A program made the position numbers and the translations under genes. Below, piece after piece: positions 27,963 to 34,026 of a DNA stretch of 64,000 bases; within the stretch, counting starts at the first letter, position 1; the number at the start of each line of letters is the position of its first letter. This DNA is from Clostridiales bacterium. Its GTDB lineage: Bacteria > Bacillota > Clostridia > Christensenellales > Aristaeellaceae. The notes beneath the pieces were generated by a model. The model made no database searches and was not told the origin of the DNA. It was given only the letters and a program-made list of their open reading frames with translations. The DNA lies in assembly GCA_012837525.1 (NCBI GenBank), contig DUQZ01000062.1, forward strand, positions 1 through 64,000. The letters are read 5' to 3'.

Positions 27963-28837
27963 ATCAGCTCATCCCCATAAAAGCGCAGGAAGCCCTCCTC
28001 CGCGTCCTCGCGCCCGCCGATTAAATCGACCACCTCATAGCGCGCCAGGGTGCGCAGCAGGGGCTGCGGGCTGGCGGGGATGGCAACCAGGGCGCGGGCG
28101 CCGATCAGCTCCACGCCGCTTTCCCACTCACTGGCAAAGGCTGCCGCCTCTGTCGGTGACTGGAAGGTGATGTGGTACACTTTCTGGCGCGTTAAGCTTA
28201 AGGATTCCACAGGCTGGGTGACCACCAAACGGCCCCGCCTGATGATGGCGACGTGGGTGCAGGTGCGGCGAACCTCCTCCAACACGTGGGAGGTCATCAA
28301 GATGGCGGCATCCCGGGCGCGGATTTCAGCCAGCACGTCAATCAGCGCATTTTTTGCCATGACAGACAAGCCGTTCATAGGTTCATCCAGCAAAAAGACA
28401 TCCGCATCCATGGACAGTGCTGTCAAAAGCCCCAGCTTTTTGCGGTCCTCAATGGTCATTTTGTGGCATTGGCCGGTGAGGGCGACATCCATCTTCTCAC
28501 TCAAATCGCGCGCTTTTTGCGGGTTGAACAAGCCATGATACTGCGCGAAAAATTTGAGGTATTCTTCCCCCGTCAGCCCTGGCTCCAGCGCTGGCGCGGC
28601 CGGCGCGTACACTGCCTTTTTGAAAATCTGATGCCGCCTGGACCAGCACTCCAGCCCAAAGATGCTGGCCCTGCCCTCATGCGCCGCCAGTTGCCCGGAC
28701 AGCACACGCAGCAAAACGGACTTGCCAGCGCCAGCCGGGCCAAGCAGCCCAAGGGCTTCGCCGCCCTTTACGTGGATATTGACATCAAAGACACCGTCCC
28801 CATCAAACTCGCGGGTGACGTTTTCACATCGGATCAA
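27959..28837 (-). CDS. ABC transporter ATPase with degenerate signature
   Basis: 292 residues from TTG 28837. Walker A GPAGAGKS (33-40) and Walker B DVFLLDEPMNG are intact, so ATP binding is expected. The signature position reads MTIEDRKK instead of LSGGQ, and the D-loop position reads NGLSV instead of SGLD. TTG is preferred because AAGGAG precedes it by 6 bases; ATG 28882 has no proper ribosome site. The start lies 14 bp within the AI-2E gene end. The C-terminal 80 residues resemble the regulatory tail of ABC-2 ATPases. Likely works with the next permease. Confidence 0.85.
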   Translation of the reverse strand: MIRCENVTREFDGDGVFDVNIHVKGGEALGLLGPAGAGKSVLLRVLSGQLAAHEGRASIFGLECWSRRHQIFKKAVYAPAAPALEPGLTGEEYLKFFAQYHGLFNPQKARDLSEKMDVALTGQCHKMTIEDRKKLGLLTALSMDADVFLLDEPMNGLSVMAKNALIDVLAEIRARDAAILMTSHVLEEVRRTCTHVAIIRRGRLVVTQPVESLSLTRQKVYHITFQSPTEAAAFASEWESGVELIGARALVAIPASPQPLLRTLARYEVVDLIGGREDAEEGFLRFYGDELI

Positions 28838-29960
28838 TCGGAACTCCTTTTTCTGCCTTTTGCTGTTCTTTCTTTTCGACATACTCCGCCGTCAAGTGGA
28901 AAAGAACCGCTGTCAAGGGGATGAAGAGCAGCATGCCGGGGATGCCCAGGATGCCGCCGCCAACCGTCACCGCCACCAGCACCCAGATGGAAGGAATATC
29001 GATCGCCGTTGACATGATGCGCGGATAGATGACAGAGCCAGCGATCTGCTGCACGATGAAGAAGGCCAGCAAAAACCACAGGGTCTGGCCGGGATCCTCC
29101 GTCAGCACCAGCAGCATGCCCAGAATGCCCGAAATAAAGGGGCCAAACACGGGGATAAAGGCCGCTACAAAGGTAATCAGGCCAATTAAGACGGGGTACG
29201 GGAAAGCGAAGAGCATCAGCACAAGGCCTGTCATAATGGAGGAGATAAACGCCTGCAGCAATTGGCCTGACAGGAAATTGGAGTAGGCTTTGGTCAGCAT
29301 GTTCAGTATGCGCAGCACCTGTGTACTGATATTTGCCGGGAATACCGCGTTGATGAGGCGGGTTACCTGCTCCTTCACCTGCTCTTTGCTAAACAGCAGA
29401 TAAATCGCGAACACCAGCCCTACCACCAGGTTAAGCAAATGCTGCGCTGCGGAAATGACCATCCCGGATGAGTAGCTCAGCCCGCCGATTAAGAACTGGT
29501 AGGCCTGTTGGAAGATGCTGCGCACCTCCCGCTCATCCGTCTCGATCAAGCCCAGGGATTCGCGGATGTTGGTGTTGCGCTCCACAAGCCAGACCTCCAG
29601 CTCCTTGAGCAGACCGGGAATGCCGCTGATTAAGCGGTTGACCGCCGCGACAATCTCTGGAATGATGACCACCATCAACAGGGAGATGATGACGGAGACA
29701 ATCAAGACTGACAAGGTGAGCGTAATCGCGCGGCGCATCTTCCTGAGGGATTCGCTGCGGTCCATCAACACAAAAGCCTGATCCAATTTGCGCATGGGCA
29801 GGTTGATGATCAGCGCCATGAAGAGGCCGATGATGAAGGGTGAAATAATCGCGATGAACGCCTGCACCAGCGTGATGATCGCGTCCAGCCGGTACAAGCC
29901 AAATGCAAACAGCATCAGGCCAATGACAAGGGGAAGCCAGCGGTGTTTGTTTTGCAGCAT
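28824..29960 (-). CDS. AI-2E family transporter (PF01594)
   Basis: 378-residue membrane protein with about eight transmembrane helices. Segments near LPLVIGLMLFAFGLYRLD, FLIGGLSYSSGMVISAAQHL and the LVAVTVGGGILGIPGMLLFI region near the C-terminus are typical of the family. Members range from the E. coli TqsA protein to sporulation and sodium/proton antiporter types, so the family name does not mean AI-2 export. ATG 29960 is chosen with AGGGGGAG upstream; the TTG 21 bases earlier covers that site. It heads the operon that leads to GH65. Confidence 0.88.
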   Translation of the reverse strand: MLQNKHRWLPLVIGLMLFAFGLYRLDAIITLVQAFIAIISPFIIGLFMALIINLPMRKLDQAFVLMDRSESLRKMRRAITLTLSVLIVSVIISLLMVVIIPEIVAAVNRLISGIPGLLKELEVWLVERNTNIRESLGLIETDEREVRSIFQQAYQFLIGGLSYSSGMVISAAQHLLNLVVGLVFAIYLLFSKEQVKEQVTRLINAVFPANISTQVLRILNMLTKAYSNFLSGQLLQAFISSIMTGLVLMLFAFPYPVLIGLITFVAAFIPVFGPFISGILGMLLVLTEDPGQTLWFLLAFFIVQQIAGSVIYPRIMSTAIDIPSIWVLVAVTVGGGILGIPGMLLFIPLTAVLFHLTAEYVEKKEQQKAEKGVPIDPM

Positions 29961-29996
29961 GTTGCGAGCTCCCCCTTTCAAATTGATGTAGTTTGA

Positions 29997-30025: not shown

Positions 30026-30138
30026 GCGGTTTGCCGGTCTCTGTTTAAACTGGCTGAATGCAACTTAATTCTACCTTGTTTTTAACCATGCCAGCCATCT
30101 TGTCAACGCGGGAACGCGCTGAAAATCCAATGGGGTTG

Positions 30139-30186
30139 GTCCTGTCCAAGAATCACATAAAAATTTGTCAAACCGCTTGACAGGAC
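30139..30186 (+). repeat. Inverted repeat around the clpB -35
   Basis: GTCCTGTC-C-AAG (30139-30150) and CTTGACAGGAC (30176-30186) are complementary except for one extra C. The second arm contains the clpB -35 TTGACA. Inside it, TGTCAA-N5-TTGACA (30166-30182) is a smaller inverted repeat. Confidence 0.6.
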
Positions 30187-30204
30187 ATGGGGTTGGTGTA
30201 TAAT
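30177..30204 (+). promoter_or_regulatory. clpB promoter
   Basis: Consensus TTGACA (30177-30182) and TATAAT (30199-30204) with 16-bp spacing, so housekeeping sigma rather than a heat-shock sigma. The start of transcription would be near 30211, at the edge of the operator at 30213-30237. Confidence 0.85.
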
Positions 30205-30212
30205 TGAATCAA

Positions 30213-30237
30213 GGTCAAAGATGGTCAGTCTTTGACC
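30213..30237 (+). promoter_or_regulatory. CtsR-like operator / perfect inverted repeat at clpB
   Basis: GGTCAAA-GAT-GGTCAGT (30213-30229) matches the CtsR direct-repeat box (RGTCAAA-NAN-RGTCAAA) except for its last two bases. The same stretch is also a perfect inverted repeat, GGTCAAAGA and TCTTTGACC with 7 bases between. It covers the predicted transcription start of clpB, the right place for a repressor. Confidence 0.65.
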
Positions 30238-30259
30238 CGCAACATGGAGGTGAATTGGT

Positions 30260-32932: not shown

Positions 32933-33634
32933 TTATATGCCAAAGAGTGAGACGAGCAGCGGCATGAATATAGTGGTCAGCACGCCCGCGACGCCGATGG
33001 CCAGTGAGCTCATCGCGCCTTCTTCCTCCCCCATCTCAAGCGCTCTGCGGGTACCCAATGCGTGCGCGGAGGTGCCCAGGCCGATGCCCTTGGCGACAGG
33101 GCTGGTAATTTTTAACAATTGATAGGCTTTGATCGCGACCATATACCCAAAGATGCCTGCGATGTTGACAAAGGTGACCGTCATGGAAGCGTCCCCGCCC
33201 TGCAGCTGTGACAGGTTCATCGAGATGGCGCTGGTCGCCCCCTTAGGCGCCATGGAGACGATGACCTCCCGGCTCAAGCCAAACAGCTGGCTGAGCAGAA
33301 TGCCGCTTGAGATGGATACAATCACCCCGATGCTGATGCCAGCCAGGATAGGAACGGCGTTGGCTTTTGATTTATCAAACTGCTTGTACAAGGGAACAGC
33401 CAGCGCGACGATGGTGGGCCCCAAAAAGAATGAGAGGATGGATGCCCCGGCGCGGTAGTGCTCATACGGGATGCCTGTCAGCATCAAAAACGCGATGATG
33501 CTGACCATGGAAAACAGCATGGGATTGAGCAGGGAGGATTTCGCGCGCCTGAAAATATACTGGTAAAACAGCATGACCGCGATGGTAAGCGTGAACCCAA
33601 AAAGCGGGCTTGTAGTAATCAGCTCCAACTTCAT
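32933..33634 (-). CDS. lrgB: LrgB family protein
   Basis: 233 residues, six or more transmembrane segments, COG1346. LrgB partners LrgA; the pair was first described as antiholin-like and in Bacillus (PftAB) and streptococci transports pyruvate. Family-typical runs are LSFFLGPTIVALAVPLYKQ and GTSAHALGTRRALEMGEEEG (near 190-209). It starts 4 bp inside lrgA. Here the pair is downstream of an esterase and an ATP-grasp gene, unlike the usual lytSR-linked arrangement. Confidence 0.93.
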   Translation of the reverse strand: MKLELITTSPLFGFTLTIAVMLFYQYIFRRAKSSLLNPMLFSMVSIIAFLMLTGIPYEHYRAGASILSFFLGPTIVALAVPLYKQFDKSKANAVPILAGISIGVIVSISSGILLSQLFGLSREVIVSMAPKGATSAISMNLSQLQGGDASMTVTFVNIAGIFGYMVAIKAYQLLKITSPVAKGIGLGTSAHALGTRRALEMGEEEGAMSSLAIGVAGVLTTIFMPLLVSLFGI

Positions 33635-34005
33635 GGGTGTTTGCCCTCCCCCGCCCTCTTTTTAAATCTGCTTGAAAGGAACTGGGCCACCAGGGACGAG
33701 GAGGCCATGGTCAACATGGTGGACAGTACCGCGATGACCAGCACCTGGTTCACAATGCCTTCAAACTTGTGAAAGCTGTTCATCAGGTTGACGCCATCGG
33801 GTAGAATAAACAGCAGCATAAACGCGATCAGCAGGCTGGCCGCCGGCTCCACAGTTTCCAGCTTGACGCGCTTTGTTAGCAGCAAAACCAGCAGGATTAA
33901 CATGCCCAGCACAGACCCCGGCACCGGCAGCCCGCTTAACATAATTAAGATATTGCCGGCAAAATTGCACAGCAGGATGATTAGAAAGCCTTTTAAACGC
34001 TCCAC
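33631..34005 (-). CDS. lrgA: LrgA/CidA family holin-like protein
   Basis: 124 residues with four transmembrane segments, the usual CidA/LrgA size. Motifs PVPGSVLGMLILLVLLLT and FILPDGVNLMNSF are characteristic. The start is GTG 34005 because AAGGA lies 6 bases upstream; a TTG 18 bases earlier has no ribosome site. It overlaps lrgB by 4 bp and lies 21 bp after the esterase gene in the same operon. It should form a membrane complex with LrgB. Confidence 0.9.
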   Translation of the reverse strand: MERLKGFLIILLCNFAGNILIMLSGLPVPGSVLGMLILLVLLLTKRVKLETVEPAASLLIAFMLLFILPDGVNLMNSFHKFEGIVNQVLVIAVLSTMLTMASSSLVAQFLSSRFKKRAGEGKHP

Positions 34006-34026
34006 TTGTTGTCCTTTCGACAAAAA

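Follow-up and report, generated by a model that had tools for sequence, protein, structure and literature searches.

The 64,000-nucleotide window, that is, the whole stretch of DNA that was analyzed, contains a clpB gene preceded by TTGACA and TATAAT promoter elements, a CtsR-type direct repeat close to the predicted transcription start and a Shine-Dalgarno sequence, with a divergent transporter open reading frame on the other flank of the promoter region (Table 1). Beside clpB, at 32933–34023 on the minus strand, are two adjoining small membrane-protein-like open reading frames that we take to resemble an LrgA/LrgB (CidA/CidB) pair. The first-pass annotation of this DNA described a perfect inverted repeat with an N7 spacer at the clpB start, a CtsR-like direct repeat of the GGTCAAANANGGTCA type within the region of this palindrome, a large inverted repeat overlapping the −35 element, and a smaller TGTCAA-N5-TTGACA repeat. 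Every one of these motifs was recovered at its annotated position, and the first half-site of the direct repeat also forms the left arm of the start-site palindrome.

Table 1. Features of the clpB promoter region, with positions in the window.
Feature	Position	Strand	Remark	Basis
Divergent AI-2E-type transporter ORF	28824–29981	−	other flank of the clpB promoter region	
Upstream inverted repeat, left arm GTCCTGTCCAAG	30139–30150	+	not conserved	
Small repeat, left arm TGTCAA	30166–30171		N5 spacer	
Upstream inverted repeat, right arm CTTGACAGGAC	30176–30186	+	overlaps −35; not conserved	
Small repeat, right arm TTGACA	30177–30182			
clpB −35 element TTGACA	30177–30182	+		sequence
clpB −10 element TATAAT	30199–30204	+	16-bp spacer after −35	sequence
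Predicted transcription start	30211	+	7th base after −10	inference
CtsR box GGTCAAAGATGGTCA	30213–30227	+	two direct GGTCA half-sites, 10 bp apart	
Left arm GGTCAAAGA of predicted 5'-terminal RNA hairpin	30213–30221	+	bases shared with half-site 1	
Right arm TCTTTGACC of predicted hairpin	30229–30237	+		
Shine-Dalgarno GGAGG	30246–30250	+	outside hairpin	sequence
clpB, 873 aa	30260–32881	+	Pfam ClpB_D2-small, Clp_N, AAA_2	

A CtsR homologue and further copies of the box, both proposed as checks in the first-pass annotation, were found in the genome, which is 96.6% complete and 2.0 Mb in size. The single CtsR match (PF05848, 4.1e-32) contains both the N- and C-terminal Pfam domains. The gene beside ctsR has a weak UVR match, under the Pfam cut-off, that would fit mcsA, and the same contig carries an open reading frame of ~847 aa that is related to ClpB and is presumably ClpC. 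The sequence RGTCAAAGANRGTCA is present at three places (clpB, ctsR and hsp20), while its backwards control is present at none. A box with no mismatch to GGTCAAANANGGTCA occurs only once in the 2.0-Mb genome; thus, the CtsR box is more distinctive than the palindrome.

In PMC12634643, the CtsR consensus is given as A/GGTCAAA NAN A/GGTCAAA and start-site CtsR boxes are already established. The clpB locus resembles the class III CtsR operator of Bacillota in its tandem RGTCAAA-NAN-RGTCA over the predicted start site, in the location of ctsR beside the gene with the weak UVR match, and in the sites at ctsR, clpB and hsp20. It differs in that the second heptad is GGTCAGT rather than GGTCAAA, and in that many clpB and some ctsR sites in the family add a downstream arm complementary to a transcribed half-site. 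At the level of sequence, CtsR control of clpB is well supported, since the genome encodes a CtsR protein with both domains and its ctsR and hsp20 genes carry boxes that match. In all 10 genus clpB leaders examined, the −10 element is followed by the box after 8 bp (an eleventh genus genome, G002, has a partial match only and is outside this count), and a box with at most two mismatches is found in 78 of the 92 family clpB leaders examined. The 14 leaders without a box (G017, G022, G034, G037, G041, G051, G052, G075, G079, G083, G097, G099, G119 and G122) suggest that clpB may have left, or never joined, the CtsR regulon in several lineages.

Several further occurrences of box-like sequences were noted. 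Weak matches to GGTCAAANANGGTCA number 29 across the window, against 15 expected. Exact copies of GGTCAAAGATGGTCA are present in four places in genus genomes (L320, L326, L330 and L331), within coding sequence that looks conserved; in L331 it translates into a similar protein end, VDTWKKMT, and codon constraint rather than regulation is the most likely cause. A reversed CtsR box is located upstream of a gene that is peroxiredoxin-like, as judged from its N-terminus, in one genus member (G006:C31:3695–3709, L329). The family hsp20 promoters L353, L355, L357 and L364 contain a second CtsR-box-like repeat ~25–30 bp from the first. The hsp20 proteins on G006:C55 (L340, L342) and on G000:C36 of the window genome (L007, L341) are 100% identical and share the same promoter context in the part shown, although ClpB of G006 is only 84% identical to that of the window genome; a misbinned contig in one assembly is the probable explanation, or else a very recent transfer. 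Additionally, Candidatus Alectryocaccomicrobium excrementavium (L238), whose genus is Clostridia incertae sedis, has a clpB leader identical to that of the family member G062.

In the clpB transcript, the two arms at the predicted start are predicted to form a hairpin with a 9-bp stem and a 7-nt loop, preceded by two unpaired 5' bases. The leader of the window folds with −14.3 kcal/mol (z −1.5), a modest result against shuffled sequences (p 0.047). Eight bases separate the end of the hairpin from GGAGG, which is partly in a weak 3-bp pairing in the minimum free energy fold and unpaired in the centroid. The window contains 33 listed inverted-repeat pairs with exact 9-bp arms and spacers of 3–20, some of which represent a single longer repeat read at different offsets, and 208 pairs with 6-bp arms and spacers of 3–10, TGTCAA-N5-TTGACA among them. 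Therefore, the two smaller repeats at clpB are not rare by themselves, and the start-site palindrome alone proves nothing, as repeats of this size are common in the window.

The arm was analyzed across related genomes. The clpB leaders came from the 10 genus genomes and a 120-genome family sample. A clpB match was obtained in 104 genomes of the family or genus; the 92 leaders in which the match begins within the first 5 residues were kept, and 78 of them are boxed. For ctsR, 91 leaders were used of 107 genomes with a match, and removal of four with two mismatches left 87. The hsp20 set consists of 25 of 30 loci from 106 genomes with a match, two loci without a box, two with two mismatches and one duplicate (G006) having been dropped. 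Among other Clostridia families, 157 of 391 genomes matched, and 108 distinct and usable boxes, located 4–11 bp after TATAAT, were obtained from 110 places among the matches listed; by the look of the N-termini, these are mostly ctsR, DnaJ-like and hsp20 genes, with few or no clpB. A helix was counted at a score of at least 6.8, and was called start-anchored if it begins 0–3 bases from the predicted start. Two layouts are found in the family, with the box either starting 5–11 bp after the −10 element or abutting it. Kinship was handled by genus counts and by swaps.

A complementary downstream arm is in excess over shuffled sequences at both genes. Helices anywhere in the box plus 24 nt are present in 35 of 78 clpB leaders (17 of 32 genera; null mean 2.6) and 27 of 87 ctsR leaders (18 of 36 genera; null mean 2.2). 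Start-anchored helices, as judged with predicted starts, are present in 32 of 77 clpB leaders (shuffled mean 0.83) and 19 of 67 ctsR leaders (shuffled mean 0.40), and among the 58 clpB leaders with a helix, 35 have their best one beginning at 0 to +3 of the predicted start. When the box was fixed and the downstream leader shuffled, 26 of 77 clpB leaders folded better at p<0.05 (KS p=1.5e-21, if each genome counts as independent). The arms differ in sequence, as for example GAAGATCAA/TTGATCTTC (G021), GCAAGG/CCTTGC (G057 and G082) and GATGGTCAA/TTGACCATC (G124), and 42 of the 78 clpB boxes have no helix of at least seven Watson-Crick pairs. Other promoters of the same genomes gave 4/37, or 2/35 once two clpB leaders missed by the filter are set aside, and clpB differs from them with a Fisher p=1e-4. 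Measured against shuffles, folding is modestly better for the sense strand than for the antisense strand (p=0.010 and 0.004). G.U is only weakly preferred over A.C in the stems (28 to 12, with 71 to 48 for shuffled sequences), a comparison confounded by the similarity of the two half-sites.

The register of the pairing at clpB differs between layouts. When only the 4-bp core was used to choose the register, pairing in leaders with a gap of 9–11 between −10 and box extends outward from the GGTC core over three bases (62–73%), with 31% paired at the next base out, in the predicted start region. Where the box abuts the −10 element (gap 0–3), the partner pairs half-site 2 and extends outward over three bases (77–92%), with 8% paired at the predicted start; the half-site-1 register is also paired there at −2 to −4, because the half-sites are alike. 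In both of these layouts, pairing is thus down to the background level at the predicted start. In leaders with a gap of 6–8, the class of the window, pairing extends inward (67–87%) and not outward. By itself, a match to the 4-bp core shows no excess in two of the clpB layouts (26/35 against a null of 21.2, and 15/19 against 12.1). Further out, positions −6 (gap 9–11) and +2 (abutting) are nominally significant, which we read as chance among many positions. The position of the helix correlates with that of the start site at clpB (rho 0.62), and no such correlation is seen at ctsR (rho −0.03), where the profile of the abutting layout (gap 0–3) is flat beside the core and without signal. Thus the register appears to follow the start site at clpB, with start sites as predicted.

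The arm also tracks bases that flank the half-site, as in GAA/TTC and GCAA/TTGC. Boxes score higher with their own arm than with a swapped arm at both clpB (6.26 vs 5.52) and ctsR (5.15 vs 4.66), with 0/2000 permutations reaching the observed value in either case. Among subsets, the swap test holds for clpB leaders with gaps of 9–11 (0/2000) and 0–4 (1/2000), and fails for clpB leaders with gaps of 5–8, which include the window (1374/2000), and for ctsR leaders with gaps of 0–4 (723/2000).

Our preferred reading, held tentatively and with close to even confidence, is that the clpB operator is built into a 5'-terminal mRNA stem-loop that probably slows decay from the 5' end. As DNA, the tandem half-sites would bind CtsR, and transcription would be blocked until heat shock. 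Once CtsR is released, the first transcribed half-site would pair with the downstream arm and close the 5' end of the RNA; the closed end would impede both the removal of pyrophosphate and RNase J acting in the 5'-to-3' direction, resulting in a longer-lived heat-shock mRNA. Binding by CtsR, the real start sites, the hairpin in cells and its stabilizing role are steps that we infer. RNase J is present in the genome. According to a review of mRNA decay in bacteria (PMC3997798), long downstream regions can be stabilized by a 5' hairpin in Bacillus subtilis, whose RppH requires two or more unpaired 5' bases and prefers three. A stem that begins at 0 to +3 is thus compatible with protection of the 5' end of mRNA made after derepression. 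Known 5' stabilizing stem-loops (ompA-type in E. coli, and those of B. subtilis) are similar in that the predicted stem at clpB would begin 0–3 bases from the predicted start, and differ in that one arm at clpB is a repressor operator and stabilization is putative.

A wider reading, in which we have somewhat less confidence, is that the CtsR operator of the family is a possible dual DNA/RNA element, whose partner arm would have evolved in several registers following the start site; in the same reading, the operator would contain a second level of class III heat-shock control that acts after transcription. A similar idea linking operator and mRNA stability has been discussed for CIRCE, and Yuan and Wong reportedly described an effect of CIRCE on mRNA stability in 1995. 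CIRCE has the consensus TTAGCACTC-N9-GAGTGCTAA, and HrcA reads the palindrome. CIRCE and the clpB site are alike in being inverted repeats close to a heat-shock gene start, with an operator role as DNA and the capacity to form a hairpin as RNA; at clpB, unlike at CIRCE, the sequence read by the repressor is a direct repeat, to which the symmetry is added. HrcA is encoded in the genome, with a perfect CIRCE beside hrcA, and CIRCE itself was rejected at clpB, where the sequence differs from the consensus. No description of a CtsR-operator hairpin was found among the papers listed for CtsR with stem-loops or with mRNA stability and clpB, as judged by titles and the openings of abstracts. If the dual role is real, the repression of a heat-shock gene and the lifetime of its mRNA are both determined by one short sequence, and the evolution of the repressor site is tied to that of mRNA decay. 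An independent case at CtsR would suggest that start-site operators are reusable as 5' mRNA caps, and the layouts found in nature, which differ in the half-site that is paired (1 or 2) and in whether there is an arm, provide a ready test set.

The right arm could instead be a reversed third CtsR half-site that serves a second dimer or raises affinity, with the RNA hairpin as a by-product; we consider this unlikely. In the window, the right arm is indeed GGTCAAA reversed, and promoters with several CtsR sites are known, such as clpE with five (PMC12634643). The hsp20 promoters serve as a negative control. Their box is reversed in 28/28 of the loci having one (30 loci in all) and is followed, in the direction of the gene, by a −10-like hexamer (at most one mismatch) 0–13 nt past the box in 22 of the 28, with an overlap of up to 2 in one; hence the box should be untranscribed. 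Still, 6 of 25 hsp20 boxes have a complementary arm (null 2.55), or 4 of 25 at a stricter cut (null 0.78), a result that fits a third half-site and makes this control only mild support for an RNA element. Arms in any register are likewise in mild excess elsewhere in Clostridia (L372–L481; 15/108 vs a null of 4.8).

Start-anchored helices, in contrast, are found in just 3 of the 108 equally placed boxes from other families (null 0.47), in 1/108 by best-helix count (null 0.62), and in 0/29 of the ctsR-like genes among them, which argues against a third half-site. Thus, CtsR sites as such seem to have no need of the arm. Under a restriction to an exact TATAAT and a gap of 4–11, the family itself gives 16/32 for clpB and only 2/16 for ctsR, to be set beside the 0/29 elsewhere; this ctsR result counts against the preferred reading. 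A third half-site is also at odds with the pairing at clpB, which ends near the predicted start and, in the abutting layout, shifts to half-site 2, with arms that track bases beyond the half-site, and with the higher overall scores of own arms. As a separate observation, several arms in other Clostridia pair with AGTCAAA of half-site 2 or with a third direct repeat.

We regard it as improbable that the hairpin acts on translation instead of decay, for instance by masking or exposing the Shine-Dalgarno sequence as a thermosensor. It lies close upstream of that sequence, and in some leaders the CCTTC arm could, by sequence, pair instead with the purine-rich site. However, predicted accessibility of the Shine-Dalgarno sequence across 72 leaders is 0.49, against 0.51 in shuffled leaders, which gives no indication of a thermosensor that sequesters it; sequestration was rejected for lack of signal. 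The position of the window hairpin, with GGAGG outside it, and the stability of its leader (both given above) speak against it as well; such a hairpin would be so stable that growth temperature would not melt it.

It is just as doubtful that the arm is without function, a by-product of relatedness combined with sequence limits near start sites. Room for this explanation is left by the kinship of the genomes, by the tendency of leaders with one layout to have an arm in common, by the many leaders in which the helix is missing, and by covariation statistics that are swaps rather than tree-aware tests. The spread of the helices over about half of the genera for each gene is against it, as are the comparisons with composition-matched shuffles and with other promoters, the overall covariation, and the occurrence of the arm in several registers. 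A 5'-terminal stem-loop remains the reading that we favor.

The upstream inverted repeat consists of 8 bp of exact pairing, a 1-nt bulge and 3 further bp. Two repeats of this type are present in the window and none in one shuffle. Both it and TGTCAA-N5-TTGACA are found in 1/10 genus leaders, that of the window itself, and the closest relative (L034, with a 92% identical ClpB) lacks either. To judge from this distribution, the upstream inverted repeat is probably not functional, and the layered operator that the first-pass annotation saw in these repeats is not supported. For the palindrome at +1, the balance of evidence tilts toward an RNA hairpin over a second DNA operator.

An HspR-type architecture, which had been suggested from the spacer of seven, shares with the window palindrome only this 7-bp spacer. 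The HAIR consensus half-site is unlike that at clpB, the hairpin loops within the genus are 7, 9, 11 and 16 nt long, and MerR_1 (PF13411) and MerR (PF00376) have no match in the 96.6%-complete genome, while in a set of 14 named control genomes each model matched 12. HspR/HAIR is accordingly unlikely at clpB and was rejected. More generally, a second repressor (HspR or an unknown dimeric regulator) reading the N7 palindrome together with the upstream repeat is very improbable: the perfect 9-bp palindrome and the scarcity of the 8+bulge+3 repeat in the window would suit it, against which stand the missing MerR-family matches, the varying loops and the restriction of the upstream repeat to one genus leader.

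An 11-bp direct repeat, ATGGGGTTGGT, flanks the upstream inverted repeat at 30130–30140 and 30187–30197, and its second copy stops just short of the −10 element.
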